This document shows positions 27,634-64,000 of a DNA stretch of 64,000 bases, piece by piece. The notes under the pieces are model-generated. The model had not been told where the DNA came from. It saw only the letters and a program-made list of their open reading frames with translations, and ran no database searches. The stretch covers positions 1 to 64,000 of IMG/VR virus record IMGVR_UViG_3300008954_003554; one strand, 5' to 3'. The stretch's first letter is position 1. Each line of letters begins with the position of its first letter. The stretch is from a virus. A program made the position numbers and the translations under genes.

Positions 27634-27636
27634 TAG

Positions 27637-28496: not shown

Positions 28497-28547
28497 TAAT
28501 AGAGTAGCTTAATAGTTATATAGGAGCTGCAAGGGAGAGCACAAGAC

Positions 28548-29782: not shown

Positions 29783-29972
29783 TCTGGTCGCACTTAGATT
29801 ATGTCAACAAGCAGGTACGATTGGAATGATTACAATGCTAACCAAGCCATCTCATCTTGCTAGGACTAAGCCTGAGCTCCGACTATACTGGGTTTTGACT
29901 GATTTGGGTAACCAATGCTTCACGGGTAGTCAGTTGATAAGACATGTCTGGATGGAAAATGAAACTCGGTGA
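29769..29972 (+). CDS. MKVGDLV-family gene 3 of the array
   Basis: 67 residues from GTG. MKVGDLVALRLCQQAGTIGMITML then a tail ending WMENETR. The closing overlap still spans 14 nt, although the sequence is ATGAAACTCGGTGA. Confidence 0.78.
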   Translation: MKVGDLVALRLCQQAGTIGMITMLTKPSHLARTKPELRLYWVLTDLGNQCFTGSQLIRHVWMENETR

Positions 29973-30138
29973 TTTGATATATGATTCTCACTTCAAAGAA
30001 CACGGTGTGGTGGTCGAAGCTAAACCCTGCGAGATTGGGCAAGGTGAGTGGTGTGCGATCCTTTATGCAGACGGTGAGCTAGTAGAGGGCATTCGGTCAT
30101 GGGAAGAAACAGTTGAGGTGGTTAATGAAAGTCGGTGA
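29959..30138 (+). CDS. MKVGDLV-family gene 4 of the array
   Basis: 59 residues from ATG 29959 (14-nt overlap). MKLGDLIYDSHFKEHGVVVEA, WCAILYADGELVEG, VEVVNESR. An in-frame ATG at 29944 is possible but breaks the family pattern. Confidence 0.8.
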   Translation: MKLGDLIYDSHFKEHGVVVEAKPCEIGQGEWCAILYADGELVEGIRSWEETVEVVNESR

Positions 30139-30322
30139 TCTCGTCCAGGTAGTGCAATCGGAATCGTGCACACTTCACACACCATTTGAAGGACAAGTAG
30201 GCGTAATCATTAATGTCTGTCTAGCTAAGTCTAAAGAACAGGATAGGTTTGTAGTACTAACAAGGAACTGTACTCTAATATTCGGACCAAGTTACCTCGA
30301 GGTTATACATGAAAGTCGGTGA
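30125..30322 (+). CDS. MKVGDLV-family gene 5 of the array
   Basis: 65 residues from ATG 30125. MKVGDLVQVVQSESC, QVGVIINV, RFVVLTRNCTL, LEVIHESR. 14-nt overlaps with both neighbours. Confidence 0.8.
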   Translation: MKVGDLVQVVQSESCTLHTPFEGQVGVIINVCLAKSKEQDRFVVLTRNCTLIFGPSYLEVIHESR

Positions 30323-30497
30323 TCTGGTAAAGAATCTAAACTCGGAATCGATGATGCATGGCGTTGTTGTGGACTTTGAGTTGCGGAGGGCGGGCGGCGG
30401 ACTTTACTCTGTGAGAATGCCTGTGGTGTTGTGGGCAGATAAAAGGTGCAGTCCAATTATGCCAGATATGGTGGAGAAAGCAAATGAAAGTCGGTGA
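30309..30497 (+). CDS. MKVGDLV-family gene 6 of the array
   Basis: 62 residues from ATG. MKVGDLVKNLNSESMMHGVVVDFELRR, PVVLWADKR, VEKANESR. Overlap of 14 nt each side. Confidence 0.8.
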   Translation: MKVGDLVKNLNSESMMHGVVVDFELRRAGGGLYSVRMPVVLWADKRCSPIMPDMVEKANESR

Positions 30498-32203: not shown

Positions 32204-33259
32204 ATGGATATCAAGACCTTCGCATCCACCGTTCGCGCCCTTCCGGCCGACGTCTCCGTTCTTATTCGAGGCCCACACGGGATCGGTAAGTCCCACCTCG
32301 CCGAGAAAGCGGCTGAGGACATAGGGCTGCCCCTCATCGACCGGCGTCTCTCGCAGATGTCCGAAGGTGACCTGGTCGGGTTGCCGGAACTGGTGGACGG
32401 TGTCACCCGCTTCTGCCCTCCGGACTGGTACGCTCGGGCTTGCCGCGAACCGGTGGTTCTCCTCCTGGACGAAATCAACCGGGCGACCCCGGAGCTCCAG
32501 CAGGGAGCCTTCCAGATCGTTCTGGCCCGGGAGCTTAACGGCCACAAGCTGCACCCCGACACCCGCGTCATCGCGGCAGTCAATGCCTCGGCAGAATACC
32601 AGGTGAACGAGATGGATCCGGCTCTGCTGGACCGATTCTGGGTTGTGGACCTGGACCCCACCACCGATGATTGGATCGAGTGGGCATCTGGCCCTGGAGA
32701 TATTGACTCGGTCATCGTGGACTTCATTCGCCACAATCCGGCTCACCTTCGATTCAAGGGACAGGCGGAGCCGGATAAGATCTACCCCTCTCCTCGGTCC
32801 TACGACCGGTTGAACCACACCTTGCAGCACGCCTCGATGGCACCTTCCGAGGTGGCTGGAGACGTCAAGTCGAACGTTGGATTCTACGCCATCTCTCACG
32901 GCTTCCTCGGTACCGAGGCTGCTATCGCCTTCCGGGACTTCGTTGATAACTACGAACTCCAGGTATCTCCGGAGGACGTGCTGAATGACTACAAGAAGAA
33001 CAAGAAGTCTCTTGAGGCGCTCACCAATGATCAGGGGAATGGTCTGATCGCCAAGGTGGTTGACCACTGCAAGCAGAACAGCTGGACGGTGGATCAGTGC
33101 TCCAACCTCTCCAAGTGGGCTAAGACCCTGCCTGGTGAGATGATGGTGAGTCTCTGGAACGGTGTGATGGAGACCAAGGAGGTCAAGAACATCACCAAGC
33201 TCCACAAGTTCCTGGGTCAGTCTGTTGTTGAAGCAGTTCAGCGGTCACGCAGTCTGTAG
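32204..33259 (+). CDS. MoxR-type AAA+ ATPase
   Basis: 351 residues. Walker A GPHGIGKSHLAEK at about residue 26, Walker B VLLLDEINRA near residue 85, sensor-1 VIAAVNASAEY and an arginine-finger-type MDPALLDRFWVVDL follow the MoxR/dynein-related AAA+ order. MoxR ATPases act as chaperones that load or remodel metal-containing partners, usually with a VWA protein encoded next door, as here. GC-rich codon use differs from the AT-rich right end. Confidence 0.9.
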   Translation: MDIKTFASTVRALPADVSVLIRGPHGIGKSHLAEKAAEDIGLPLIDRRLSQMSEGDLVGLPELVDGVTRFCPPDWYARACREPVVLLLDEINRATPELQQGAFQIVLARELNGHKLHPDTRVIAAVNASAEYQVNEMDPALLDRFWVVDLDPTTDDWIEWASGPGDIDSVIVDFIRHNPAHLRFKGQAEPDKIYPSPRSYDRLNHTLQHASMAPSEVAGDVKSNVGFYAISHGFLGTEAAIAFRDFVDNYELQVSPEDVLNDYKKNKKSLEALTNDQGNGLIAKVVDHCKQNSWTVDQCSNLSKWAKTLPGEMMVSLWNGVMETKEVKNITKLHKFLGQSVVEAVQRSRSL

Positions 33260-33270
33260 TTGTCCTGCCC

Positions 33271-33305
33271 CCTCCCGTGTAGCACACACGGGAGGGTGGT
33301 ATAAT
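33271..33305 (+). promoter_or_regulatory. Promoter TGTAGC-N16-TATAAT superposed on a hairpin
   Basis: A 10-bp perfect stem CCTCCCGTGT/ACACGGGAGG (33271-33280 with 33286-33295) has a 5-nt loop. TGTAGC (33278-33283) lies across the loop and TATAAT at 33300-33305 follows. The hairpin may end the upstream transcript while the same DNA starts the next. Confidence 0.82.
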
Positions 33306-33322
33306 ATAGTCAGGAGGTACTA

Positions 33323-34621
33323 ATGGAACCCATGGAACAGAAAGATCAAGGCACCGCGACCGAGCTTCCGAGCAAGCTGGAAGCCACTGATGAACAGGTG
33401 TCTCGATTCAAGCTCGATGATCATCTCGTCAACCTCATGTTGCACGAGCCTTTCTTCAGTCAGGTGATGGTTAAGCTCAACAAGTCAGAGACCAGCGCGG
33501 TGCCGACAGCAGGCGTCATGGTGAAGGACTGTGTCCCTCACTTCGTCTGGAACCCTCGATTCGTAGCAGCACTCTCGGCACTCAAGGTGCGAGGGCTTCT
33601 CAAGCACGAGTGCTACCATCTCATCTTCAATCACTGCACCCAGCGTCGACAGGAGCCACACCGTGTGTGGAACTTCGCCACCGACCTGGCCATCAACTCA
33701 ATCATTCCTCGCAAGGAGCTGCCAGACGGTGGTCTCTTCCCGGGTGAGGCACTCGACCTAAGCGGGATCACAGATCCCGAGCGGTTGAAGAAGTGGCAGA
33801 AGGTATCAGACCTGATCGCCTCGTTTCCTACCGAGAAGTCAGCTGATTGGTACTTCACCGAGCTGATGAAGGACCCTGAGATCTCTGAGACCATCGAGCC
33901 GGAGCCCGGTGAGGGTGAGCCCGGTGGGATGGACGATCACGAAGGCTGGGGTGACATGTCTGATGAGGAACGTCAGGTGGTCGAAGGCCGCATCAAGCAG
34001 GCACTGGCAGAGGCAACTCGACGCTGTGATGGTAACGGGCAGTGGGGATCGGTCCCTAGCTCCGTCCAATCTCGAATCCGTCAGATGGTAAGTAACGAGG
34101 TGGACTGGAAGTCGCTTCTCAGGAACTTCTGTGGTCGGACACAAAGGGCTCACCGAAGCTCGACCATGAAGAGAATCAACCGGAAGTATCCGTACATTCA
34201 CCCTGGTCGGAAGCGAGGTCACAGCGCTCACCTGGCCATCTACCTCGATCAGTCCGGTTCGGTTGCTGACGATGATATCGCCCTGCTGTTTGGTGAGCTC
34301 AACAACCTGGGCCGGATGGTTGAGTTCACGCTCATCCCGTTCGACTCCACTGTGGACACAGAGAACGAGATGAAGTGGCGACGCGGTGCCAAGGTCCCAC
34401 CCCAGCGCTGGCGGTCAGGAGGTACCTGCTTCGATGCTGTGGCTAAGCACGCTGTCGAGAATAAGCACCGATTTGACGGCTACATCGTCCTCACTGACGG
34501 TGAGTGCTCTGATCCCGGGCCATCAAAGATGCGACGGGCCTGGGTGATCGTTCCAGATCGGAAGCTCTACTTCAAGCCACACCCCAAGGATATGCTCATC
34601 AATATGAAGCGTAGCGTGTAG
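33323..34621 (+). CDS. VWA protein with putative metallopeptidase-like N-terminus (DUF2201 type)
   Basis: 432 residues, CAGGAGGTACTA before the ATG. N-terminal half: FVAALSALKVRGLLKHECYHLIFNHCTQR has an H-E-x-x-H motif typical of the DUF2201 metallopeptidase-like domain. An acidic linker (EPGEGEPGGMDDHEGW) follows. C-terminal half: VWA domain with AIYLDQSGSV (D-x-S-x-S) and IVLTDGECSD. This is the standard partner of the MoxR ATPase upstream. Confidence 0.88.
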   Translation: MEPMEQKDQGTATELPSKLEATDEQVSRFKLDDHLVNLMLHEPFFSQVMVKLNKSETSAVPTAGVMVKDCVPHFVWNPRFVAALSALKVRGLLKHECYHLIFNHCTQRRQEPHRVWNFATDLAINSIIPRKELPDGGLFPGEALDLSGITDPERLKKWQKVSDLIASFPTEKSADWYFTELMKDPEISETIEPEPGEGEPGGMDDHEGWGDMSDEERQVVEGRIKQALAEATRRCDGNGQWGSVPSSVQSRIRQMVSNEVDWKSLLRNFCGRTQRAHRSSTMKRINRKYPYIHPGRKRGHSAHLAIYLDQSGSVADDDIALLFGELNNLGRMVEFTLIPFDSTVDTENEMKWRRGAKVPPQRWRSGGTCFDAVAKHAVENKHRFDGYIVLTDGECSDPGPSKMRRAWVIVPDRKLYFKPHPKDMLINMKRSV

Positions 34622-36460: not shown

Positions 36461-36611
36461 CAAAGAGATTATTCGTGAAGCATACTTCGCACTGGCCGGC
36501 TATCGAAGCCCGACACTAACAAGACAGCAGCGGGAGAATGAACTACAGAGATGTTATACACTTCTTGCGGACGCTCTGTATAGACGGGATGAGGAAGATG
36601 AAAGTAGGTGA
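36453..36611 (+). CDS. 52-residue helical protein ending in the ESR overlap
   Basis: ATG 36453 to TGA 36611. MTDKEIIREAYFALAGYR...YRRDEEDESR is helical and unlike the MKVGDLV family. Yet it ends in the same ESR-stop because its last 14 nt (ATGAAAGTAGGTGA, 36598-36611) are the start of the next MKVGDLV gene. It shows that unrelated genes can be linked by the same joint. Confidence 0.68.
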   Translation: MTDKEIIREAYFALAGYRSPTLTRQQRENELQRCYTLLADALYRRDEEDESR

Positions 36612-36765
36612 CCTGGTAAAGTATAAAGGTTCAGTCGGAATTGTTCTTGGGCCTTGCACAAAGCGCTGGGCTAAGCCCGCTGATGTTTGGGTACTTTGGC
36701 CTCATAAGCACAGGCCCATGATCGAGAGCAGCGACTTTATGGAGTTAGTAAATGCAAGTCGGTGA
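36598..36765 (+). CDS. MKVGDLV-family gene
   Basis: 55 residues from ATG 36598. MKVGDLVKYKGSVGIVLG, DVWVLWPHKHRP, MELVNASR. 14-nt overlaps at both ends. An in-frame ATG at 36538 is ignored as it lies inside the previous gene. Confidence 0.8.
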   Translation: MKVGDLVKYKGSVGIVLGPCTKRWAKPADVWVLWPHKHRPMIESSDFMELVNASR

Positions 36766-36943
36766 CCTGGTATCATTGAAGATGAAGAAGACACAACCCC
36801 CTCAGGTACCTTGCCATGGCATCGTACTCAATCTATGGCGGAATCATAAGGGACGGCTTGTTGAAGTAGAGGTGATGTGGTCAGAAGGTAATGTTAGAAG
36901 GTTCCGTGCTGATCTCTTCGAGGTGATCAATGGAAGTAGGTGA
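36752..36943 (+). CDS. MKVGDLV-family gene
   Basis: 63 residues. MQVGDLVSLKMKKTQ, CHGIVLNLW, VEVMWSEGNVRRF, EVINGSR. 14-nt overlaps both sides (ATGCAAGTCGGTGA and ATGGAAGTAGGTGA). Confidence 0.8.
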   Translation: MQVGDLVSLKMKKTQPPQVPCHGIVLNLWRNHKGRLVEVEVMWSEGNVRRFRADLFEVINGSR

Positions 36944-37112
36944 TATTGTTCATGATCATGCTGTTGGTCGCAATGGCATCATCCTATCTAAGACGGTGTG
37001 TGCGTGGAAAGTTAACTGGTTCTATGTCTTTTACGGCGACGGCTCCATCGAGCAGGCACGTGCCAATGAGCTAAGCATACTTTCTTGTAAAGCGCTCAGA
37101 AATGATGTATAA
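36930..37112 (+). CDS. MKVGDLV-family gene, last of this group
   Basis: 60 residues. MEVGDIVHDHAVGRNGIILS, WFYVFYGDGSIEQA, then a tail (SCKALRNDV) without ESR. Its 3' end lies over the promoter at 37086-37113. Confidence 0.76.
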   Translation: MEVGDIVHDHAVGRNGIILSKTVCAWKVNWFYVFYGDGSIEQARANELSILSCKALRNDV

Positions 37113-47336: not shown

Positions 47337-47485
47337 CGTACGGCAATAAGTATTACTCCCAGAAGAAAGAAGCTAAAATCTGGGCTGGAATCAAAAAGGA
47401 AAAGCTCATTTTTTGTCAAAAATTTCCGGAGAAAATTTAAAAACCATTCCATATGTATAAAGGATCATCATCAGGAGACAAAGGG

Positions 47486-47971
47486 ATGAGAGTTACTCGC
47501 AAGCAGTTAAGAAAAATAATCCGGGAAGAATCCTTCAGGGCACTTAGGGAGCAAACAGCACCTGAGCCCCCAGAGCCAGGAGAGGAAGATGAAGAAGATG
47601 AAGAGAGAGACTATGGAGACAGCCGAGCCGGACGACCAGACCCGAAAGCTGTCCCCTGGAGGAAAATTACTGAAGAGATGGCTGGACAGGGCGGTAAGCT
47701 CGTTGCCATGGACAAGGGTTCCGGTCTTGGACAGGTTTACTTTTTTGGTGTTGGAGATCACCCCCCGAAAGGGTGGCCAGTCAAAATGCTCATGCGAGTA
47801 AAGAATGAAAAAGGACAAAGTGCCAAGGAGCTTGGAATAGAGATACGAAGGGTCGGAAGTGCTGTAAGTGGAAATAAGAATGTGAAGCTCGGTCGAGCAA
47901 GCACAGACTTTGAGATGGTTTCAGATGCTGAGCTTATCTTTGTTGCTTACAATGCAAATGCAGACTTCTAA
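47486..47971 (+). CDS. Tagged protein with acidic linker
   Basis: 161 residues from ATG 47486 (CAGGAGACAAAGGG). Tag MRVTRKQLRKIIREESFRALRE, then QTAPEPPEPGEEDEEDEERD as linker. The cargo is a beta-type domain (KLVAMDKGSGLGQVYFFGVG; IEIRRVGSAVSGNKNVKLG). Not recognised. Confidence 0.75.
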   Translation: MRVTRKQLRKIIREESFRALREQTAPEPPEPGEEDEEDEERDYGDSRAGRPDPKAVPWRKITEEMAGQGGKLVAMDKGSGLGQVYFFGVGDHPPKGWPVKMLMRVKNEKGQSAKELGIEIRRVGSAVSGNKNVKLGRASTDFEMVSDAELIFVAYNANADF

Positions 47972-47979
47972 GGTTAAAA

Positions 47980-48528
47980 ATGAAAATTACACGTAGACAG
48001 CTAAGAATGCTTATTGAAAAAGTTCTAAGAGAGCAGACCGCCTCTGTCTCACCTTCACAGGCCCAAATCGAAAAGAACCTTGAGAAGTTGGCGAAGGGCC
48101 CTCCCGTGCTCACCCATCTGGGGACGGATCCCGGAAAAGAGAGCGTTTTCGACAAAGTCTCAGATGATGAATTTCCCAAGCAGATGGCCGGGGTATTGGC
48201 ACTTGAAATGATAAAGTCTACCAGAAAGACAAAGAGAGCTGCACGGAAAGCAGGTGTTGATAGGGTGGCTGATTTCTATGATGGAATAGAGCTACTAAGG
48301 ACCGATGATTCTCGAGGGCAAGGGGTAACAGAGCTTGTGTACACTGTCGACTTAGGGGACCAGACTCTCAAGGACGCATGGGTAGATAGTTACAATAAGT
48401 TCAATTCAAGTGCCCTGGATAGAATAATGCGTAATCATGACAAGACAGGTCAATATTCTGTCGGAAGCTTTGGGAACGCTGATGGGACTGCTATCCAGAT
48501 CGGAATCATTGACAGCCAGACAAAGTAA
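47980..48528 (+). CDS. Tagged protein of unknown function
   Basis: 182 residues. Tag MKITRRQLRMLIEKVLRE, then QTASVSPSQ. The cargo has a helix (GVLALEMIKSTRKTKRAARKAG) and strands (TELVYTVDLGDQTLKDAWVD; TAIQIGIID). 8 nt from the upstream gene; probably the same operon. Confidence 0.75.
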   Translation: MKITRRQLRMLIEKVLREQTASVSPSQAQIEKNLEKLAKGPPVLTHLGTDPGKESVFDKVSDDEFPKQMAGVLALEMIKSTRKTKRAARKAGVDRVADFYDGIELLRTDDSRGQGVTELVYTVDLGDQTLKDAWVDSYNKFNSSALDRIMRNHDKTGQYSVGSFGNADGTAIQIGIIDSQTK

Positions 48529-48597
48529 GTCAATTTAACTCATAAGTTTTAATACCATTAGAATACATATAATAGTCATTGATCAGGAGACAGAGAG

Positions 48598-48867
48598 ATG
48601 AAAATCACAAGAAGCCGGCTAAGAAAGATTATACTTGAAACAGTAGTTAATGAAGGTGATTCAGGTGCCGGAAGAGGTAAGATTCTGAATGCCATAGAAG
48701 ATGTATATGGAGTCGATCAGCAAGAGGCCCAGCAGATATGGGCTACTGTACCGGAAGATAGGGCTGCGCAAGCAGTCCAGCTTGCATCGTCAGACTGGGT
48801 CACAGAAGAACTAGTTGAGTCCATCATCAGAGCTCTTCAGGAGCGCGGTCATCTTCGTAGAAGCTAG
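48598..48867 (+). CDS. Tagged small helical protein
   Basis: 89 residues, CAGGAGACAGAGAG before the ATG. Tag MKITRSRLRKIILETVVNE, VNE before GDSGAG. The cargo looks like one small helical domain (ILNAIEDVYGVDQQEAQQIWATV). Confidence 0.74.
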   Translation: MKITRSRLRKIILETVVNEGDSGAGRGKILNAIEDVYGVDQQEAQQIWATVPEDRAAQAVQLASSDWVTEELVESIIRALQERGHLRRS

Positions 48868-48902
48868 GACCAGGTCAATTTAAAAATTTCTTTAAGAAAT
48901 TT

Positions 48903-48930
48903 TGTAAACTTCCCTCAGATATAGTAGAAT
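48903..48930 (+). promoter_or_regulatory. Promoter TGTAAA-N16-TAGAAT
   Basis: TGTAAA 48903-48908, TAGAAT 48925-48930. An early-type promoter within the tagged region, for the single gene at 48990. Confidence 0.78.
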
Positions 48931-48989
48931 TTAATATTGGATCGGTCATCGGTCCAATTTTTTATGCTTATATACAAGGAGAAAAAAGC

Positions 48990-49229
48990 ATGTCATTTAC
49001 CAAGTCAAAGTCCACGAAGCGCTTCAGCTTCGATATTAGCCGCAACCTCACTGCAAAGAAGGCCGGTAGCAACACTGTTACCATTGCAACCAACCCGATC
49101 GCAGAGGGCCGATACAGTTATGGAGGTACCCAACTTACCATGACAGTGCGTGAGGCACAGGCACTTCGTAGCTTTCTCAATGAGAATCTTACCCCGGTAA
49201 GCTACGACAGCGGCGAAGGAATTGGCTAG
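48990..49229 (+). CDS. Hypothetical 79-residue protein, monocistronic
   Basis: CAAGGAGAAAAAAGC before the ATG. SFTKSKSTKRFSFDISRNLTAKKAGSNTVTIATNP then a helix (VREAQALRSFLNENL). Promoter in front and terminator behind make it a stand-alone unit. No tag. Confidence 0.75.
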   Translation: MSFTKSKSTKRFSFDISRNLTAKKAGSNTVTIATNPIAEGRYSYGGTQLTMTVREAQALRSFLNENLTPVSYDSGEGIG

Positions 49230-49250
49230 CATCAAGACTTAGTCATCTAA

Positions 49251-49280
49251 AAGGCCTGGCTAGACACCAGGCCTTTTTTA
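49251..49280 (+). terminator. Rho-independent terminator
   Basis: AAGGCCTGG/CCAGGCCTT stem (49251-49259 with 49267-49275), 7-nt loop, then TTTTATTTTT. Confidence 0.93.
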
Positions 49281-49340
49281 TTTTTAAAATCAGCATCTAA
49301 GTGATAGTTATAAATGTGACTAACGCAAATAGGAGAAAAA

Positions 49341-49832
49341 ATGCGTAAACTTAAGATTAATGAGCTAAGACAGCTAATCAAAGAGGAGGCCGACACCGAC
49401 GAAGAGGGTGAGGAGGGCAGCGAGGCTGTTGATGAGCAACATCAACCCAGAGCTGGCAAGTTTAAGACACCAGCTGAGTACATCGCCAGCGGTCACGAGG
49501 ACACCTTTCTTGAAGTCACCGGACGCCTCATGGGATACAAGAAGCTCTGGGAAGGTACATGGGGCACCAAGGGAGTCGAAGAAATGGCTAAGCAGCAGGC
49601 GAGATTCTCCGGTGGCGAACTTAGCTACCATGAGCTGGATGTAGGTGGCCTGAGATTCTGGCTCACCATAGGAACGGTCCTATCAGATTACCACGACGGC
49701 AGCGTCGGCGCTAACGTCATCGAGGAGCTTGAGTCTGACGGGATCATCGACGGTAGTTTCAGGAGAGTGAGCAGCAACATGGGAATTAGCCTCGTAGCCC
49801 TAAACGGTTGGGCTAACAGGGAAGGGATCTAG
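49341..49832 (+). CDS. Tagged protein, paralogue of 51612
   Basis: 163 residues, AGGAGAAAAA before the ATG. Tag MRKLKINELRQLIKEEAD, then an acidic linker and DEQHQPRAGK. The domain from there on (AEYIASGHEDTFLEVTGRLMGYKKLW; LSDYHDGSVGANVIEELE...IDGSF) aligns with the 51612 protein along its full length. Function unknown. Confidence 0.76.
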   Translation: MRKLKINELRQLIKEEADTDEEGEEGSEAVDEQHQPRAGKFKTPAEYIASGHEDTFLEVTGRLMGYKKLWEGTWGTKGVEEMAKQQARFSGGELSYHELDVGGLRFWLTIGTVLSDYHDGSVGANVIEELESDGIIDGSFRRVSSNMGISLVALNGWANREGI

Positions 49833-49852
49833 GACCTTTAAGGCACCAATCA

Positions 49853-50176
49853 ATGAAGATCACGCGGGGACAGCTTAGGCACATACTCCAGGAGGAGATG
49901 ACACGGGCATTGCGTGAAGACGGTCACACCGATATCCCCTCAGCACAAAGGGCCATGATGACCTCGATGGAGGACGCGACAGACATTTTAAACGCGTTAG
50001 CCCATGCTGATGGCGGTCACCACCTGCCCTCCTGGTGGATGAAGAAGGTGCACTTAGCCGCGGATTACCTTAATGTGACTCGCGATTATCTCGTCACTAA
50101 GCCTCATACGGGACAACAAATTTCTGAAGAGGAGGGTTCCGGTGGATGCGACTGTGGTTGCGGTAACTGCGGCTAG
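49853..50176 (+). CDS. Tagged helical protein with Cys-rich tail
   Basis: 107 residues. Tag MKITRGQLRHILQEEMTRALRE. The cargo is helical with a His-rich turn (HADGGHHLPSWWMKKVHLAADYL). The tail GGCDCGCGNCG has four Cys in nine residues, a possible metal site. Its 3' end overlaps the next gene's GTG by 35 nt. Confidence 0.72.
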   Translation: MKITRGQLRHILQEEMTRALREDGHTDIPSAQRAMMTSMEDATDILNALAHADGGHHLPSWWMKKVHLAADYLNVTRDYLVTKPHTGQQISEEEGSGGCDCGCGNCG

Positions 50177-50450
50177 ATCCGGCAGCGCAGGTAAGGTCAC
50201 CCTGCGTAAGCGGGACCTGATTGAATTAATTAAATGCGATGTTGTCGATCTCACCGAGGGTGCCTTCCGGGTCGTGCTTGACTCTGACGACGGCGGCACT
50301 CTCATTAACGTCATGCTCGAGGATCACGCCAACACGCATGAGATCATGAAAGAGCTGTATCTGGCCTATCCTGGTCAGCGCCTGGTAATCACCAAGGTCC
50401 CACTTGGGTGGTTAAAGGTGTTTATGCCATTAAATAGCCACAGAGACTGA
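50142..50450 (+). CDS. Hypothetical 102-residue protein
   Basis: GTG 50142 (GAGGAGGGTTCCG). The first ~12 residues are encoded by the same bases as the Cys-rich tail upstream. KVTLRKRDLIELIKCDVVDLTEGAFRVVLDSDDGGTLINVML, alpha/beta layout, no tag. Not recognised. Confidence 0.65.
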   Translation: MDATVVAVTAARSGSAGKVTLRKRDLIELIKCDVVDLTEGAFRVVLDSDDGGTLINVMLEDHANTHEIMKELYLAYPGQRLVITKVPLGWLKVFMPLNSHRD

Positions 50451-50480
50451 TTTTGAGCGTGTAGTTTCAATTCTCGATCA

Positions 50481-50489
50481 TATTTATTA
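50481..50489 (+). promoter_or_regulatory. Weak late-promoter-like TATTTATTA
   Basis: TATTTATTA 25 nt before GTG 50506; spacing is shorter than at the four good sites. Confidence 0.3.
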
Positions 50490-50505
50490 CATGAGGGGTA
50501 TCGCC

Positions 50506-50856
50506 GTGAGAATCACATTGCAAGAGCTACGTCAAATAATCTCTGCGGAGATCAGTGGGCTAAGTGAGGATATGAGGACACCCGAATTCATGAGTATGAC
50601 GCAGGGTGCGAGACTCGGGGGATCGGAGGAATCCGAAGTGGAGCAAGAGGTCTCTCTTGCGACGCTCGGAGAAAGAGTTCTATTGGGTCTTTTTGGCATT
50701 AGGGGATCTCTTGAGACAGTATTATCTGAGATTGAGGATATGGCTAACCACCACGAATCACAGTCTCGGGGTCTAGAGATGCAATTTGCTGATAGTCATG
50801 CGGAACTAGCCATGGTTTTATCAAATCTTGAGCAAGCAATTGATAGGATGAAGTGA
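50506..50856 (+). CDS. Tagged helical protein
   Basis: 116 residues from GTG 50506, chosen over ATG 50491 because the peptide then starts MRITLQELRQIISAEISGLSE like the tag, and GAGGGGT is placed correctly. The cargo is helical with heptads (ETVLSEIEDMANHHESQS; LAMVLSNLEQAIDRMK). Confidence 0.72.
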   Translation: MRITLQELRQIISAEISGLSEDMRTPEFMSMTQGARLGGSEESEVEQEVSLATLGERVLLGLFGIRGSLETVLSEIEDMANHHESQSRGLEMQFADSHAELAMVLSNLEQAIDRMK

Positions 50857-50866
50857 GGGGAATGAT

Positions 50867-51019
50867 ATGGAAAGAATAAAAAAAATTTTTCGAAACCTGA
50901 ATTCAAAAATGGAGTGGCGAGGTATCACACCCAACGATATTATGATGTCAATTTTTTCTCTGGGAGTCCTGGCTGGTTTTATTTTTTGGATTGCGATAGG
51001 CTTTTTATCCCAGACATAA
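50867..51019 (+). CDS. 50-residue membrane protein
   Basis: ATG 50867 (GAGGGGAATGAT) to TAA 51019. A basic start (MERIKKIFRNLNSKMEWRG), then one membrane helix (IFSLGVLAGFIFWIAIGFL). Its stop region leads into the TATTTAATC box at 51020. Confidence 0.66.
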   Translation: MERIKKIFRNLNSKMEWRGITPNDIMMSIFSLGVLAGFIFWIAIGFLSQT

Positions 51020-51028
51020 TATTTAATC
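51020..51028 (+). promoter_or_regulatory. Candidate late promoter TATTTAATC
   Basis: TATTTAATC at 51020, 39 nt before GTG 51059. One base from the consensus. Confidence 0.45.
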
Positions 51029-51058
51029 CTATATCACTAACACACGGGAGATGTAACA

Positions 51059-51586
51059 GTGAAAAACTTAACCAAAAAAGGTCTTCAAAAATTGATTCTT
51101 CAAGAGGCCAAGAAACTTAATAGTAAAAAAAGAGCCCTCAACGAATCGGTCTTGATTGATAATAGCAGGGGAAGTAGAAAAAATCTTAGAACAATGATTC
51201 TCAGAGAGGCCAAAAAGATGGGTATCGTTGATGCACCCAAAGAAAACTGGCCCAGGCCTGGTGACAAAGTATCAGATATTGCAAATAAGGCTGAGTTCTC
51301 TAAGATGAAGGTTGACAAGGAAGCAGCGAAGCTCGTTTCTCACAGCTGTGCCAATCACGTCCTGATGGAATCACCTGGTGATCAGAAGACTCACGGTATT
51401 TCAGAAAAACACTCCCTTGGAACCTGTGTCTGGCACTCACTCAACGAATCAGGTCACGTCTCCCATTACGATGTTCGATTTGGTGATAAGGTTGTCAAGA
51501 ACATCCCGGCTAGCAGACTAATCGTAATATCTGAAAGAAGCCATCAACATGAAACCCGTTCAAAAAGAAAGTCTAAGAAAAGCTAA
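51059..51586 (+). CDS. Tagged protein with two tandem tags
   Basis: 175 residues from GTG 51059 (ACGGGAGATGTAACA). Tag 1 MKNLTKKGLQKLILQEAKKL ends at RALNE. Tag 2 (SRKNLRTMILREAKKM) follows about 20 residues later. The cargo contains SHSCANHVLMESPGDQKTHGISEKHSLGTCVWHS, a His/Cys-rich core, and a basic end. Not recognised. Confidence 0.73.
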   Translation: MKNLTKKGLQKLILQEAKKLNSKKRALNESVLIDNSRGSRKNLRTMILREAKKMGIVDAPKENWPRPGDKVSDIANKAEFSKMKVDKEAAKLVSHSCANHVLMESPGDQKTHGISEKHSLGTCVWHSLNESGHVSHYDVRFGDKVVKNIPASRLIVISERSHQHETRSKRKSKKS

Positions 51587-51611
51587 ATTTCAGAAAACTA
51601 TAGGAAAAAAA

Positions 51612-52043
51612 ATGAAAATTTCAATGAATCAACTTAAGAGCATCATCAGAGAGGAATCATCTCGAATGAGAGAGCAGCACCAACCCAGGTCAGGAGGAGG
51701 AAAAACCGCGGCTGAGTACATCTCCGGAGGACATGAGGGCGTATTTATGGAGGTAATGGGAGCTCTCGCTGCATGTGATAAAATATGGGATTGGGTCGAA
51801 GGGCAGGTAAGCAACTATGCAAGAATTAATCAGGGTCCAGTGTCTACTAGCAGCGGTACAGATTATCATGACATTTTAGTTGTTGGGGCAGTCTGCAGTG
51901 ATTACTTTGACGGTAGTTCAGGTGCAAAAACTTTTGAGGAGCTTGAAGCGGACAATAAGATTGACGGCTCCTGGAGAAAAGCAGCAGCTAGCGATGGGTT
52001 TAGCCTGATGTGGGCCAACGGAATTAAACAGAAGAATTGTTAA
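51612..52043 (+). CDS. Tagged protein, paralogue of 49341
   Basis: 143 residues from ATG 51612 (AGGAAAAAA). Tag MKISMNQLKSIIREESSRMRE, then QHQPRSGG. The domain AEYISGGHEGVFMEVMGAL...CSDYFDGSSGAKTFEELE...IDGSW aligns with the 49341 protein. An in-frame ATG at 51549 lies inside the gene before. Confidence 0.76.
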   Translation: MKISMNQLKSIIREESSRMREQHQPRSGGGKTAAEYISGGHEGVFMEVMGALAACDKIWDWVEGQVSNYARINQGPVSTSSGTDYHDILVVGAVCSDYFDGSSGAKTFEELEADNKIDGSWRKAAASDGFSLMWANGIKQKNC

Positions 52044-52075
52044 ATAAATAGTTTGATTATTTTTTAAACTTTTCT

Positions 52076-52103
52076 TGTAAATCGTATCACATAGTGGTAT
52101 AAT
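52076..52103 (+). promoter_or_regulatory. Promoter TGTAAA-N16-TATAAT
   Basis: TGTAAA 52076-52081, TATAAT 52098-52103 after TGG. Drives the lipoprotein gene at 52159. Confidence 0.88.
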
Positions 52104-52158
52104 AAAAGAGTTCTAAATAAGTAGAGCTCTTTTTCTTTTAATAAAAAAGGATTTAAAT

Positions 52159-52692
52159 ATGCTTAATGCAAAATCAATCGTTCTCCTCTCCCTTCTTCCT
52201 CTCACCCTCGTTGCATGTGAAGGCGACTATGACGAAAGTATTTCTTTTCCAGAAGATGCCCTTTCTGATACGAGCTCTTTTGAAACAGATGACGATGTTG
52301 TTTTCGATACTTCTCCAAGCACCCCGGATCATCCGTTTGGTCGATCTCCGATCATGACAGAAGATTTTGATAAATTTGGGGTCTGTTATTCTGAGGCACA
52401 GAGTGATCAGGCAGATTTTTTCAATAGCGGTACACCCTGTATTGACGGGATGGTGGCGTTGATTAGTGGCCGAGGCTGTCCCGAGGTTGTCTATGAGGAT
52501 AACGAGGATGGCACACACAGTATTTACTGCACCACTGAGCCGACATGCGATGTGGTCCACAGTGATGGTTATCTTGCTATTCCAAATAGCCTTGACTGGA
52601 GTGATTTTGGAAATCGGAGCCAGATGATGTGTCAAGATAATAATGTTACTCTTGTTTATTTTTCAAACAAGTCTAGTGTTATTGATCAATAG
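52159..52692 (+). CDS. Lipoprotein, 177 residues
   Basis: AAAAAAGGATTTAAAT before the ATG. Signal peptide MLNAKSIVLLSLLPLTLVACEGD with lipobox LVAC. The mature part is acidic with eight or so Cys in pairs (FGVCYSEAQ, PCIDGM, GRGCPEVV, SIYCTTEPTCDVV, MMCQDNN). Expected to be anchored outside the cytoplasm, possibly a surface/superinfection protein, but no family recognised. Monocistron between promoter and terminator. Confidence 0.76.
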   Translation: MLNAKSIVLLSLLPLTLVACEGDYDESISFPEDALSDTSSFETDDDVVFDTSPSTPDHPFGRSPIMTEDFDKFGVCYSEAQSDQADFFNSGTPCIDGMVALISGRGCPEVVYEDNEDGTHSIYCTTEPTCDVVHSDGYLAIPNSLDWSDFGNRSQMMCQDNNVTLVYFSNKSSVIDQ

Positions 52693-52711
52693 ATCTTAAA
52701 AATTATTTTTT

Positions 52712-52736
52712 AAGCCCGCAATTTGCGGGCTTTTTT
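52712..52736 (+). terminator. Rho-independent terminator
   Basis: AAGCCCGCA/TGCGGGCTT stem (52712-52720 with 52724-52732), short loop, and a run of T. Placed 20 nt after the lipoprotein stop. Confidence 0.92.
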
Positions 52737-52847
52737 ATTGCTCTGTATCAGCTCTGTTTGACACGAGAGTCCTGGCTTGATAATCTAATCATTATAGCAC
52801 CTAAGATGCAATAGAGTTCAAGCTAGATACTACAGATAGTTATTGGT

Positions 52848-53192
52848 ATGAGTTCTATACTCTTGCCAAACCAACCCTTTAAACTTGTTATCAGCATGGA
52901 GGGGGTCAACCCAACAGCAGATGGTTTTGCAACATTTTCATGGTTTGGGAAAAGAATGAAACTATATGAAAAAGTTGATCTTGATACCTACCCGTCTATG
53001 AAAGACTTTAAAGGGAATAGTTTTTATTTTGATATTGGGACGGTAGGGACCGTCGTTAGACTTGTAGGTCGACCAGACAAGATAAAAAAAGATCCAATCT
53101 GGTGCAAATTTGATCTATATGAAGTTCTAATTGGAGGAAAAATTATTCAGATGTTTAGACAAAACATGGAACCAATAAGTTATCATATATAG
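52848..53192 (+). CDS. Hypothetical 114-residue beta-type protein
   Basis: MSSILLPNQPFKLVISMEGVNPTADGFATFSWFGKRMKLYEKVD...IGTVGTVVRLVGRPDKI, strand-rich. The IGTVGTVVRLVGRPDK and KFDLYEVLIGG strands resemble a larger SH3-like fold. No good ribosome site. Not recognised. Confidence 0.6.
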   Translation: MSSILLPNQPFKLVISMEGVNPTADGFATFSWFGKRMKLYEKVDLDTYPSMKDFKGNSFYFDIGTVGTVVRLVGRPDKIKKDPIWCKFDLYEVLIGGKIIQMFRQNMEPISYHI

Positions 53193-53215
53193 TTATATAA
53201 GCTAAGAGGCACTTA

Positions 53216-54022
53216 ATGAAAATTACAGCGCGCGAAATTAGAAAAATGATCCTAGAAGAATCTCAAAAGCTAGAGAGAGAGAAAAGAGATCAAGACGATG
53301 AAATCCTAAGAGAAGCCTGGTTAGATCTTAGAGATCGAGGATACACAGATTCAGAAGTGATTGATGGTTTGCTTTCTAGTGCAGGCGTTATGATTGAGTC
53401 AAGATTTCTCAACGAAGAAGATGCTGCCGGAGAAAATGGAGGCGCGGGTTTCTTTTCCACTATTGCGACTGGGGCAGGAGATGTCCTTAAAGGTAAAATT
53501 TCACAGATTGTAATTGATACAATTCTATCTGCATTCCAGGTAGATCTTCGAACACCTTTTGGAAGAATGGTCAGAGCCTTAGCAATCAACGTCGGTGAAA
53601 ACTTTGAGTATGCGAGGTGGAGAGAATATTTCGGAGGGGAAAGTAGTTGTGGTCTTTGGGCAGAAACAATTTCACAAGCTGTTGGAGAAACTGTGATCTT
53701 AGAGCCGATAATGTCAGCAATTTTAGTGCAGCTCGGACTTCGAGGAGCGGGAGGGGCAGCAACGCCGACGCGACCTCCCGATATTGCTGCACCAGACGCA
53801 GGTATTGGGGGAGTGCTCGCGGGAACTTTAATTAGAACCATAGAAGAGGCAATAAACGAAGCCCTTGTGGGACCCGTTTCCGATGCAATTGCTGACAGGT
53901 TGTGTAGAATTAGAGTTAGGGATCTGGTTGGAGATACTTTTGGACTAGGCTCTATAGCCCGCAGACTAACTGGGTCTGACAGGCCTGAAGGATATTACTC
54001 AGCACTATCCGGTGCAACTTGA
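53216..54022 (+). CDS. Tagged protein with hydrophobic central region
   Basis: 268 residues, AAGAGGCACTTA before the ATG. Tag MKITAREIRKMILEESQKLERE. A second short helix ends SRFLNEEDAAG (LNE site). Residues ~80-230 are Gly/Ala/Ile-rich with amphipathic or membrane-active segments (FFSTIATGAGDVLKGKISQIVIDTIL; ILEPIMSAILVQLGLRGAGG; GIGGVLAGTLIRTIEEAI). It could insert into a membrane. Function unknown. Confidence 0.73.
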   Translation: MKITAREIRKMILEESQKLEREKRDQDDEILREAWLDLRDRGYTDSEVIDGLLSSAGVMIESRFLNEEDAAGENGGAGFFSTIATGAGDVLKGKISQIVIDTILSAFQVDLRTPFGRMVRALAINVGENFEYARWREYFGGESSCGLWAETISQAVGETVILEPIMSAILVQLGLRGAGGAATPTRPPDIAAPDAGIGGVLAGTLIRTIEEAINEALVGPVSDAIADRLCRIRVRDLVGDTFGLGSIARRLTGSDRPEGYYSALSGAT

Positions 54023-58077: not shown

Positions 58078-58497
58078 CTAGATAAGCTTTTTGTGTAAAT
58101 TTTCATATATCTTTTTTCTGCCCGGTTTTTTTGCATAAAGCTTTATAAGCTCACCCGCCCTGGCATTTGCTTGATCTTCGTGAAAACCTCCGGCATCTCT
58201 AATGTTGCCGTGCAATAAATCTTGTTCATCTTGCATCATGTGCGTCATTTCGTGGGCGATGGATCTCAGGACATCGACTGTGGCACGATTTTTTCCATAG
58301 ATTCTAATTTCACCATCTCCAACCATGTAAGCAGCGGTTGTTGATATTGAGTATGGCTCTCTCTCTGAGACTATATAGACATTACAATTACCGTGAATTG
58401 GGAGTGATTCACAGCAGAATATAATAAAGTCACCTATTAACAGTGCTTTTTCTGGATCTATTTCAAGATCTTGGGAAATAAATAGTTTTCTTTTCAT
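58078..58497 (-). CDS. Zincin-type metallopeptidase-like protein
   Basis: 139 residues on the minus strand. SIAHEMTHMMQDEQ holds the HExxH motif, and FHEDQANARAGEL about 25 residues later offers the third ligand Glu. Small phage and bacterial zincins of this kind are common. No signal peptide and no tag. Convergent with 56888-58069. Confidence 0.76.
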   Translation of the reverse strand: MKRKLFISQDLEIDPEKALLIGDFIIFCCESLPIHGNCNVYIVSEREPYSISTTAAYMVGDGEIRIYGKNRATVDVLRSIAHEMTHMMQDEQDLLHGNIRDAGGFHEDQANARAGELIKLYAKKPGRKKIYENLHKKLI

Positions 58498-60137: not shown

Positions 60138-60614
60138 ATGAAATTACGAGACGAAAATTTTCTAAGAGACTATATTAGGAACATTATTAGAGAAAGAAAA
60201 TATGATTCTATTTCTTGCGGAATAGTGGTCGTAAAAAAATTTGGAAACAAATGGAAGCCCCTTGCGCTGATTGTCGGCAGCAAGATAGATATTCCCAAAG
60301 GAAGGGTTGAAGATGGCGAAAATACGCTAGAGACTGCGACTAGGGAGACTTATGAAGAGTCGGGAATTTCTGATCTTAATTTTTCCTGGGGAAGGGATTT
60401 CCTTAGGGTTCAAAACATGGTTGTATATCTTGCATCAACAACGCAGGAACCTAAAATAATTCCAAACCCTGTTACCGGTCGAATGGAACATGATTTTTGG
60501 AAGTGGATGGATTGGGAGGATATGATATCAAGAAGTAGTCCCAAGATAAGGCACTCTCTTAGGTGGGCAAAAAGAAAAATTCAGCAAAATGATTTATTGA
60601 CATCAGTTTTTTAA
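60138..60614 (+). CDS. Nudix hydrolase with tag-like N-terminus
   Basis: 158 residues. The Nudix box GRVEDGENTLETATRETYEESGI is complete (G-x5-E-x7-RE-x-x-E-E-x-G). These enzymes split nucleoside diphosphates linked to other groups (capped RNA, dNTPs, ADP-sugars). The start MKLRDENFLRDYIRNIIRE looks like a divergent copy of the shared tag. That would make this the clearest enzyme carrying it. Confidence 0.86.
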   Translation: MKLRDENFLRDYIRNIIRERKYDSISCGIVVVKKFGNKWKPLALIVGSKIDIPKGRVEDGENTLETATRETYEESGISDLNFSWGRDFLRVQNMVVYLASTTQEPKIIPNPVTGRMEHDFWKWMDWEDMISRSSPKIRHSLRWAKRKIQQNDLLTSVF

Positions 60615-60650: not shown

Positions 60651-61826
60651 ATGTCGATATTCAAATCAAACCCAAGGCATGCAGATAGATCAGCATCAGA
60701 CAGGTCTCGTCATAAGAAAAAGATAGCGCATGCCATAAGAGAGGGAATTCATCATATTGTATCTGATGAGTCAATTATTGGAAAAGATGGAAAGAAAAAA
60801 ATCAAAATCCCAGTCAGGGGAATTAAAGAATATAGGTTTGTATTTGGGGATAACAACAGAAAAAAAGTAGGTTCGGCACCGGGAAAGGATATCTCAAGGG
60901 GACAGCGGATAGGACAGTCTGATCAGCAGCAGCAAGGGTCAGGAAACAAACCGGGAAATGAAGAGGGTGAGGAGTATTACGAAGTAGAAATAACCCTAGA
61001 AGAGTTAAGTGAATATCTTTTTGATAGCCTTAAGCTTCCCGATATTGAAAAAAAGAAATTCAAAAGCATAGTTGGAGAAAAATATAAAAGATCAGGATAC
61101 AGAAAAAAAGGTATTCGTCCCAGGCTGTCGAAGAAACAAACACTTATTAATAAAATAAAGCGTAGAAAAAAAGCCTATTTTGAAAATAGTGAAGATGAGA
61201 ATGAAAGATTTCCATTCCACAAAGATGATTTAAAATATCATCATATTAAAACTAAACCAAAAGAAGTAACAAGCGCTGTTATATTTTTTATGATGGATGT
61301 TTCTGGATCCATGACGCAGACAAAAAAGTTCATGGCACGATCTTTTTTCTTTCTCTTGTATCATTTCTTGAGAGCAAAATATAATAATGTTGAAATAGTT
61401 TTCATATCTCACACAACAGTTGCCAAAGAAGTTTCTGAAGATGAGTTCTTTACAAGAGGAGCTAGCGGGGGTACCAAAATATCTTCTGCTCTAGAGCTAT
61501 GTCTTGACATTGTCAATAAGCGTTTTCATCCTTCCGCGTGGAATATATACACTTTTCACTGTTCAGACGGAGATAATTGGACCGATGATAATGAAAAGTG
61601 TGTTTCACTTTCTAGAACTATCAAATCACTTTCACAACTTTACTGTTTTGTTGAAATAACACCTGAAATATTTGAAAATGATGGAAATACAACCTTTGGA
61701 TTTTCCCAAGAAAGTAAAATATCCAACTCATACACACCGATGAAAGATTCTAAATTTAAAATAGTAAACCTGTTTCACAGTGATGACATATGGAAAGAAT
61801 TTAAAAGAATATTTGGAGGAAGCTAG
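60651..61826 (+). CDS. YeaH/YhbH-family (DUF444) VWA protein
   Basis: 391 residues from ATG 60651 (GTG 60633 possible). DRSASDRSRHKKKIAHAIREGIHHIV, KIPVRGIKEYRFVFGDN, and the YEVEITLEELSEYLFDSLKLP segment match UPF0229. The VWA domain starts at FFMMDVSGSMTQTKKFMARSFFFLLYHFL and contains the HCSDGDNW motif of E. coli YeaH. YeaH works with the kinase YeaG (PrkA) in stationary-phase and nitrogen-starvation survival. Here the partner genes follow directly. AT-rich. Confidence 0.9.
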   Translation: MSIFKSNPRHADRSASDRSRHKKKIAHAIREGIHHIVSDESIIGKDGKKKIKIPVRGIKEYRFVFGDNNRKKVGSAPGKDISRGQRIGQSDQQQQGSGNKPGNEEGEEYYEVEITLEELSEYLFDSLKLPDIEKKKFKSIVGEKYKRSGYRKKGIRPRLSKKQTLINKIKRRKKAYFENSEDENERFPFHKDDLKYHHIKTKPKEVTSAVIFFMMDVSGSMTQTKKFMARSFFFLLYHFLRAKYNNVEIVFISHTTVAKEVSEDEFFTRGASGGTKISSALELCLDIVNKRFHPSAWNIYTFHCSDGDNWTDDNEKCVSLSRTIKSLSQLYCFVEITPEIFENDGNTTFGFSQESKISNSYTPMKDSKFKIVNLFHSDDIWKEFKRIFGGS

Positions 61827-63143
61827 ATGTCTGACTGGTCAATGAAAGATTTAGAAACCTGGGATGAGAAGATTATACAGATTGCCAAGGGATATAATTT
61901 AGATTGGTTTCCAATAAACTATGAAATATCCGACTACTATGACATGATTGGTAGCATGGTATATCATGGGATGCCATCACACTACGGTCACTGGTCTTAT
62001 GGAAAATCATTTGAAAGAACTCATTTAAACTATAATTTTGGGATGACTGGGTTGCCATACGAGCTTATAATCAATTCGAATCCATCGATTGCGTATCTTA
62101 TGAAAGAAAATCCTCTATACCTTCAGATATTGATTATGGCTCACTGTATTGGACATTCTGATTTTTTTAAAAATAGTAGAATATTTTCACACACAAGGCC
62201 CGGGGACATTGTTACCAAGCTTAGAAGTGCAAAAAAGAGAATTCAAAAATATTCTGAAGATCCGGGTATTGGAATGGAAAAAGTAGAGAAGACTCTTGAC
62301 TCTCTAAGGTCGATACAGTATCAAACGAGCAGATTTAATCTTCCTCAGCTTTCACATGTAGAGAAAAAAAGAAGAATTGTAGAAAAAATAAATAAAACTA
62401 GTTCAAAAAAAGAAAGTGCAAAACTTAGAGAGAGTCTAGATAGGATTCCAGTTGAGCCAGAAACAGATCTTTTATGGACAATTCTTGAATTTGGAAACCA
62501 CATACCCGAATGGAAAAAAGATATTATAAACATAGTAAGAGAAGAATCTCTCTACTTTATACCCCAGATTAGAACAAAAATTTTAAATGAAGGGTGGGCC
62601 AGTTTTTGGCACTATAGAATATTAAATGATCTAAATCTGCCTCAAAAGTATCATATTCCATTTTTAAGAAGTCACAATCAAGTAATTAGACCCCATTTGG
62701 GTGGAATTAATCCGTATCATTTGGGATTTTATTTATTTGACAAGGTAGAGAAAAGAGACGGAATAGAGGAATGTTTTCTAATTAGAGAAATACATGATGA
62801 TGCCTCTGCAATTAGGTTCCTATTGGAACAAGAAGATTGTGAAAATTTAAACCTATTCTCCTATTCAAAGAAAAAAAAGCTAACTTCAATAGACGATGTC
62901 TCTGATGACGTGGGGTGGAGAAACATTAAGAATGATCTAGTAATGACAACAGGGGTTAACTCTATCCCTGTAATCGGAGTTGATGAAATTTTATCTGATG
63001 GTACTTTAATTTTATTACACGACCATGACGGAAGAGATTTAGAGTTAAATTATGCCGAAGAGGTTGTCGAGCATATTAGATATTTATGGGATAGAGATGT
63101 TAAGCTGTTTACGATTATCGAAGAAGAAACGTGGGAAATCTAA
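61827..63143 (+). CDS. SpoVR/YcgB-family protein
   Basis: 438 residues starting right after the YeaH stop. EISDYYDMIGSMVYHGMPSHYGHWSYGKSFERTHLNYNFGMTGLPYELIINSNPSIAYLM... and NEGWASFWHYRILN and GINPYHLGFYLF are the SpoVR signature. It is somewhat shorter than E. coli YcgB. Named for spore cortex formation in Bacillus; in Gram-negatives it is linked to the YeaG/YeaH pathway. Function at molecular level unknown. Confidence 0.92.
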   Translation: MSDWSMKDLETWDEKIIQIAKGYNLDWFPINYEISDYYDMIGSMVYHGMPSHYGHWSYGKSFERTHLNYNFGMTGLPYELIINSNPSIAYLMKENPLYLQILIMAHCIGHSDFFKNSRIFSHTRPGDIVTKLRSAKKRIQKYSEDPGIGMEKVEKTLDSLRSIQYQTSRFNLPQLSHVEKKRRIVEKINKTSSKKESAKLRESLDRIPVEPETDLLWTILEFGNHIPEWKKDIINIVREESLYFIPQIRTKILNEGWASFWHYRILNDLNLPQKYHIPFLRSHNQVIRPHLGGINPYHLGFYLFDKVEKRDGIEECFLIREIHDDASAIRFLLEQEDCENLNLFSYSKKKKLTSIDDVSDDVGWRNIKNDLVMTTGVNSIPVIGVDEILSDGTLILLHDHDGRDLELNYAEEVVEHIRYLWDRDVKLFTIIEEETWEI

Positions 63144-63197
63144 TGCAAAGGGTTTATATTTCCATAATTCAAAGTAAAATCTCATATAGAGGATCAG

Positions 63198-64000
63198 ATG
63201 CCTGATAAGAACAAATTTTTAAAAATCATAGAAGATCAAAGAAAAGGAAAAAAGAAAGAAAAGTTTTCTGGTAATTTCCTAGAGTATCTTAATATTATAA
63301 AGGAAAATCCTGAGACAACTCAGACGGCTCATCAGAGACTCTACAGGAAGATTGAAAGCTTTGGTGTGAGTGAGATAGATCGATCTGACCCTAGATTCCA
63401 GGGGGTTTTTTGCGGAGAAAAAGTTAAAACATATGAATATTTCAAAGATGAATTTTTTGGAATGGAAAATGTAATTTCAAAAATAATGAGATTTCTTAGG
63501 TCTGCTGCACACAGAGGTGAAGAGAGCAGGCAGGTTCTTCTCCTTCTTGGCCCAGTTGGTGCAGGTAAATCAGCGCTGACAGAGCATGTAAAAAAATCGC
63601 TCGAAGGGGAGAGGTTTTATCATTTATCAGGAGATCCCCAGAAAGGGGAGCCCCTCCAGTTGATCCCTAGAAACCTAAGGGAAAAATTTGAAGAAATTCT
63701 AGGTGTAAAAATAGAGGGAGATATCAGTCCCGTTGCCAGATTTAAGCTCCTCGAAGAGTTCAAGGGAAAATATGAGAATTTTCCTGTTGTAGAATCAAGC
63801 TTTTCCCAGAGAGCTCGTAGAGGGATAGCTGTTGTTCCTCCCATGGATCCAAATAGTCAGGACACCAGCGTTCTAATAGGGTCGGAAGATATATCTAAAT
63901 TAGACTTATATCCAGAAGACGATCCCAGAACGCTATCTCTCAATGGAGCTTTTAACGTCGGAAATAGGGGAATCGTAGAGTTTGTTGAAATTTTTAAAAA
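63198..64000 (+). CDS. PrkA/YeaG-type serine protein kinase, 3' truncated by the window
   Basis: At least 267 residues from ATG 63198 (AGAGGATC), running off the end. SGNFLEYLNIIKENPETTQTAHQRLYRKI and the DPRFQGVFCGEKVKTYEYFKDEFFGMENVI start match PrkA. LLLLGPVGAGKSALTEHVK is the Walker A of its AAA domain, and FSQRARRGIAVVPPMDPNSQDTSVLIG follows as in PrkA. The kinase domain lies beyond the window. It completes the YeaH-SpoVR-PrkA triad. Confidence 0.9.
   Translation, partial: MPDKNKFLKIIEDQRKGKKKEKFSGNFLEYLNIIKENPETTQTAHQRLYRKIESFGVSEIDRSDPRFQGVFCGEKVKTYEYFKDEFFGMENVISKIMRFLRSAAHRGEESRQVLLLLGPVGAGKSALTEHVKKSLEGERFYHLSGDPQKGEPLQLIPRNLREKFEEILGVKIEGDISPVARFKLLEEFKGKYENFPVVESSFSQRARRGIAVVPPMDPNSQDTSVLIGSEDISKLDLYPEDDPRTLSLNGAFNVGNRGIVEFVEIFK

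Follow-up and report, generated by a model that had tools for sequence, protein, structure and literature searches.

The window analysed here, which is the 64,000-nucleotide stretch at positions 1-64000 of the 83,333-bp IMG/VR virus record IMGVR_UViG_3300008954_003554, carries the complete YeaH-SpoVR-PrkA triad, and the gene trees indicate that phages have captured this triad from bacteria at least four times, on each occasion with the full set of three partners present in the phage. The YeaH, SpoVR and PrkA genes are all intact and contiguous on the plus strand, with intergenic gaps of 0 nt and then 54 nt, and all three families have Pfam matches; the same-strand adjacency that a sequence-only reading of this DNA had described is confirmed.

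60651..61826, + strand: YeaH/YhbH (DUF444), about 391 amino acids (aa); Pfam PF04285 at 1.6e-111; VWA domain with a complete metal ion-dependent adhesion site (MIDAS)
61827..63143, + strand: SpoVR (YcgB), 438 aa; Pfam PF04293 at 1.5e-112 and SpoVR_C at 2.7e-9
63198..64000, + strand: 5' part of PrkA (YeaG); AAA_PrkA PF08298 at 3.6e-82 for the part inside the window

The PrkA frame runs uninterrupted past the window end to record position 65129, giving 643 aa in total, and the full-length protein has a complete AAA domain (PF08298, 3.4e-138) and a complete C-terminal domain (PF06798, 7.4e-79). Extension of the sequence, which had been proposed as a check on this domain, thus revealed no break in it. 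YeaH homologues start like the ATG at 60651, which favours the start chosen in the sequence-only reading, and the GTG start listed at 60633 is probably wrong. Purine-rich ribosome-binding sites precede SpoVR and PrkA (GGAGG upstream of SpoVR), and the promoter-like sites found in promoter and terminator scans were uninformative.

The search with PrkA found 201 IMG/VR contigs, and the counts for relatives given here rest on the best 80 of them. YeaH, SpoVR and PrkA occurred together and in this order in 77 of the 80 relatives, four of which had a small open reading frame called in between; two of the remaining three were cut by the contig end and one had an interrupted SpoVR frame. The search with SpoVR gave 19 IMG/VR loci, all of them YeaH-SpoVR-PrkA and one a near-identical copy of the window's own. 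The view of the complete triad as a unit is well supported by this fixed order. The order in bacteria is mostly PrkA-YeaH-SpoVR, and the phage order was found only in some Sulfobacillus-like Bacillota. All three families of the module are present, co-oriented and adjacent in the window, and the bacterial order, from which the window departs, is not essential to the module.

Complete triads in the same order as in the window are also carried by the cultured Thermus phages phiYS40, phiLo, MN1 and Lalka27b, with one gene inserted before PrkA in phiYS40. The huge phages LR745206, LR756502, LR756504 and LR756511 also have PrkA, YeaH and SpoVR; unlike in the window, PrkA comes first, as in bacteria, and in LR756502 SpoVR lies far from PrkA and YeaH. 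The window lineage formed one clade (support 100) in each of the PrkA, SpoVR and YeaH trees and sat beside or within Clostridia/Deltaproteobacteria-type genes in all three, which answers the call for a phylogeny against bacterial copies. For PrkA and YeaH the Thermus phages were placed next to Sulfobacillus, and for SpoVR they formed a basal clade of their own; their triads would be a separate capture, with PrkA about 30-33% identical to that of the window. In the trees of PrkA and YeaH, LR745206, LR756502 and LR756504 grouped with genes of Enterobacter type; LR756511 grouped with Planctomycetes/Chloroflexi/Myxococcota types. The gene trees are quick trees with some long branches. A single origin of all phage PrkAs was rejected, as one common clade cost 1021.6 log-likelihood units (approximately unbiased test, p-AU 3e-7). 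These separate placements and the rejected common PrkA clade together point to the four or more captures. Within the window lineage the triad has one origin, and it was probably captured whole by an ancestor of this uncultivated group of large tailed phages.

The triad is under strong purifying selection, with medians of the ratio of nonsynonymous to synonymous substitution rates (dN/dS) of 0.04-0.08 within the lineage. The AT-rich stretch around it is real, with about 35% GC against 44% for the record, and it reaches beyond the triad. In 77 relatives the triad GC tracked that of its surroundings (r 0.95, median difference 0.004), so the low GC here is uninformative on a recent import. A recent acquisition, as judged from AT content, was ruled out because the triad GC follows the local GC of each phage; the AT-rich block had been taken as a sign of separate acquisition, and this idea is not supported, since the composition is local-like and the acquisition is old and common to the whole lineage.

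The record has no end repeats and is hence a fragment. It encodes PhoH, endolysin-like and exonuclease genes together with many proteins without a PHROGs match, and no nucleotide match to known phages was obtained. The terminase search on this record matched only PhoH and a portal was likewise not found there, because the record is incomplete. In a relative, a single contig of 100.7 kb holds the triad as well as the genes for terminase, portal, the head maturation protease and the baseplate wedge, and strong terminase and portal matches were found on the PrkA-bearing contig in 10 of 12 large relatives (103-361 kb). It is therefore highly improbable that this is bacterial DNA, or host cargo that is merely carried along and has no role. 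Triad-type genes are widespread in bacteria, and Enterobacter phage LAU1, rejected as a triad phage, shows how host genes may end on a phage record, its yeaG-yeaH lying at the record end and resembling the host flank of a lambdoid prophage. However, about 200 IMG/VR contigs encode the PrkA, the synteny is conserved, terminase and portal share contigs with the triad, and both the purifying selection and the phage-specific clade in all three trees count against this explanation. Only chimeric contigs could rescue this explanation, and independent assemblies from many samples make chimerism very unlikely. An origin from a bacterial chromosome, which would have undone the sequence-only reading, is accordingly ruled out, and its placement of the triad in a phage genome stands. 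Bacillus phage CM1 was also rejected as a triad phage, as it has a DUF444 protein only. The 305,838-bp contig NHDW01000006.1 (L120), filed under the Methylococcaceae metagenome-assembled genome TMED69, carries a phage-type triad and the GroEL-like gene, and the assembly that holds it also has a phage portal gene (phrog_213); it is probably a large phage misbinned in that genome.

The AlphaFold2 model of SpoVR has a mean predicted local distance difference test score (pLDDT) of 89.5. When chains were re-aligned to it with VIA-align, the top rows were nearly all zinc peptidases (M3, M32, M2, M61), and the best row had a Z of 10.6 and a root-mean-square deviation (rmsd) of 4.0 over 180 residues. 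The SpoVR motifs here are H106-C-I-G-H110 and N254-E255-G256-W-A, and H106-x-x-[G/A]-H110 and N254-E255-G256 are kept in 62 of 62 aligned SpoVRs, in the arrangement expected of a gluzincin. The residue after H106 is Cys, Val or Ala in all 62 and never the catalytic Glu, so that the classical HExxH motif is absent. SpoVR is probably a metal-binding, non-classical peptidase-like protein with a predicted zincin-like fold. Neither a global profile alignment of SpoVR nor one with M32 was usable, and its sequence search of the PDB returned nothing credible. The E. coli ycgB mutation H127Y rose in an iron(III)-selected population (PMC10044975), and codon 127 corresponds to SpoVR H110, the second His of the invariant HxxGH; a link between this mutation and the predicted metal site is suggestive only.

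PrkA has the Walker A motif GPVGAGKS at residues 118-125, and its AAA+ residues G118, G121, K124, S125, N256, E261, E264, H303, N305 and R324 are present and kept in all phage groups. Its sequence relative with a solved structure is PDB 9xip (E 8e-97). The bpMoxR profile scored 15.5-16.4 bits, under its cut-off of 27; PrkA is an AAA family of its own, and the analogy to MoxR-VWA pairs concerns the working mode only. The sequence-only reading had called PrkA a kinase, a label that is doubtful and contested in the literature: kinase and protease activity were both undetectable in purified B. anthracis PrkA (PMC13001217), and at the site of E. coli K426 many family members have Asp or Glu, while the PrkA described here has the equivalent Lys. 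Both K116 (Walker A) and K426 of E. coli YeaG are required in vivo (PMC4664914), and K124 of the phage protein is the counterpart of K116 by residue mapping. The YeaH MIDAS consists of D222-x-S224-x-S226, T281 and D312 (numbering of the GTG-started frame at 60633), and these residues were identical in 143 of 143 aligned phage and bacterial sequences, which places YeaH among the VWA proteins.

The triad is flanked by genes that recur in the relatives:

60138..60614, + strand: NUDIX hydrolase directly upstream of the triad; PF00293 at 1e-11; recurs in many relatives
Record positions 65142-66536 (L002:2043-3437): GroEL-like gene directly after PrkA; GroEL fold in the model
Record positions 67752-68120 (L002:4653-5021), beyond the window: transfer-messenger RNA (tmRNA) gene; Rfam RF00023 at 109 bits

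The GroEL-like gene directly follows PrkA in 60 of the 80 relatives. The model of its protein (pLDDT 92.1) has the chaperonin fold, with Foldseek E values down to 1e-29 and template modelling (TM) scores up to 0.78. The protein diverges fast (14-34% identity), its near-invariant columns are almost all in the apical part, and the N-terminal equatorial columns examined vary freely. Neither the DGTTT motif nor a Pfam Cpn60 match was found in it, and it has no recognisable ATP-binding motifs. Some phages without this gene at that site encode a roughly 540-aa chaperonin a few kb off (for example L068:3634-5262, Cpn60_TCP1 8e-73). The tmRNA encodes the tag peptide ANNNYHFESVRLAA, and tmRNAs above the Rfam cut-off were found in 7 of 13 IMG/VR records and in the huge phage LR756511, in which the gene (L118:15301-15655) lies about 2 kb downstream of the triad. 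No tmRNA was within reach of bacterial prkA in 79 loci. No SmpB gene was found in the 14 phage records searched, so host SmpB would be needed. Taken with the tmRNA, the degenerate GroEL-like protein suggests that the triad sits in an island devoted to protein quality control.

Other features of the same phage were also observed. A 139-aa metallopeptidase-like protein with HEMTH (58078-58497, minus strand) recurs near the triad in relatives and had no Pfam or PHROG match. About 28 otherwise unlike proteins share an N-terminal tag of about 17 aa, with consensus MKITRRQLRQIIKEE, for which shuffled controls gave one match; they are located at window positions 13632-28548 and 47453-53216 and record positions 68174-69904, and the triad lacks the tag. 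This tag could be a capsid-targeting or propeptide signal. Small paralogous proteins with MKVGDLV-variant starts occur in about 10 copies (window 393-1620, 29389-30497 and 36538-37112). At window positions 32204-34621, a MoxR-like AAA+ gene precedes a gene that fuses a DUF2201 metallopeptidase to a VWA domain, with HECYH and DQSGS intact; this pair is a further AAA+/VWA/metallopeptidase system of the phage.

Since the kinase label is disputed, an ATP-driven AAA+/VWA/metalloprotein remodelling machine is favoured. PrkA would form an ATP-driven AAA+ ring with YeaH as VWA partner or adaptor, SpoVR would contribute a metal-binding, zinc-peptidase-like component without the usual catalytic Glu, and the three proteins together would remodel target proteins in the cytoplasm of the infected cell. 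By analogy with the bacterial set, the most likely target would be the host's control of starvation and metabolism, and the slow or starved cell would then support phage production on the schedule of the phage and not of the host. Induction by starvation or stress and a quiescence phenotype are known for the bacterial copies only. E. coli yeaG and yeaH mutants have a common phenotype (PMC4664914), and YeaG/YeaH are held to act as a 'metabolic brake' when nitrogen runs out (PMC10954441, PMC4664914), so it is plausible that the triad holds the host in, or releases it from, a starved state. The repeated capture of all three genes speaks for retention of the bacterial function, for which they are needed jointly, and the triad probably helps infection as a working unit. 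We favour action on host starvation physiology, as in bacteria, and give it about an even chance. Several points weigh against it. In Thermus phage Lalka27b the triad has head genes on one side and terminase on the other, a position more in keeping with virion assembly, and the AAA+/VWA/metallopeptidase pair of jumbo phages has been proposed for virion assembly (PMC7824862). The zincin assignment of SpoVR depends on the above VIA-align row (Z 10.6, rmsd 4.0, 180 residues), no match of the SpoVR model was significant with Foldseek alone, and the best local SpoVR-M3 profile alignment pairs HCIGH with HEMGH only weakly (E 0.015, probability 3%).

The main alternative, clearly less probable yet serious, is that the machine acts on phage proteins, as an AAA+/VWA/zincin-like complex that serves virion assembly as a chaperone or in processing, along with the GroEL-like neighbour. 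Besides the jumbo-phage proposal, an archaeal virus needs a MoxR-VWA pair to assemble its tail (PMC7824862), and the genome studied here has its own MoxR-VWA-metallopeptidase pair at 32204-34621. The Lalka27b triad is situated precisely between portal/minor head genes and the large terminase subunit gene TerL, that of phiYS40 is three genes from TerL, and the chaperonin-like gene adjoins the triad in the 60 relatives noted above. In the window lineage, however, the triad is at least tens of kb from terminase and portal (e.g. 37 versus 121 kb, 67 versus 167 kb), the same repurposing would have to have followed each of the four or more captures, which drew on different bacteria, and the triad proteins do not have the N-terminal tag of the approximately 28 phage proteins, the function of which is itself only guessed. 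It is unlikely, though conceivable, that the complex serves counter-defence or takeover by unfolding or inactivating host defence or stress-toxin proteins. In E. coli, yeaG influences toxin/antitoxin gene expression, and a yeaG mutation swept one T7-resistant population, but this mutation was not shown to be causal; the PrkA AAA domain weakly matched PADLOC DolB (1.6e-5), but no proper defence-family match was obtained, and the genes evolve slowly, unlike typical arms-race genes. The broader form of the favoured starvation reading is that large phages repeatedly captured a complete quiescence machine and built a proteostasis island (the AAA+/VWA/zincin-like triad, the chaperonin-like protein without an ATP site, and tmRNA), by which they control or exploit growth-arrested hosts, with SpoVR as a metal-binding pseudo-peptidase in an AAA+ remodelling complex; we put this forward tentatively, as a possibility that is more likely to fail than to hold.

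As compared to the bacterial operons (E. coli yeaGH and ycgB; B. subtilis prkA, yhbH and spoVR; Clostridium prkA-yhbH-spoVR), the window has the same three families with conserved catalytic and metal-site motifs, and its PrkA is 52-60% identical to Clostridia/Delta-type copies and about 31% to that of E. coli. It differs from them in the order YeaH-SpoVR-PrkA, in being phage-borne and in the degenerate GroEL-like gene that comes next. Unlike in the window, the triads of Lalka27b and phiYS40 are near head/terminase genes. The MoxR-VWA pairs of jumbo phages resemble the triad in having an AAA+ ATPase, a VWA partner and a metallopeptidase-type domain, but in them the VWA is fused to a metallopeptidase whose HExxH is intact, and PrkA belongs to another AAA+ family. 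The full triad had been called notable, and it is not unique, as it also occurs in Thermus phage isolates and in huge phages from metagenomes; the suggestion that SpoVR-family genes may occur in some jumbo phages proved correct, since RsoM2USA, known here from the paper alone, lists SpoVR and PrkA as ORF28 and ORF30 (PMC8504454). The database record of phiYS40 already annotates SpoVR and a serine kinase. The reviews searched make no mention of phage triads, and the literature searched, with most subscription journals outside it, held no paper treating phage triads as a system. What is new here concerns the size of the lineage and its synteny, the repeated and independent captures, the fold reading of SpoVR and the chaperonin/tmRNA context.

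Bacteria in nature are mostly starved, and the success of phages in starved cells is an open question, for which a conserved and repeatedly captured starvation module offers a testable handle. Even after 30 years, the role of PrkA, YeaH and SpoVR in bacteria is still unresolved. Concrete leads come from the metal site predicted in SpoVR and from the iron-selected E. coli mutation, and the phage copies, with the triad present in cultured Thermus phages, offer a new genetic route to the function of these three proteins.

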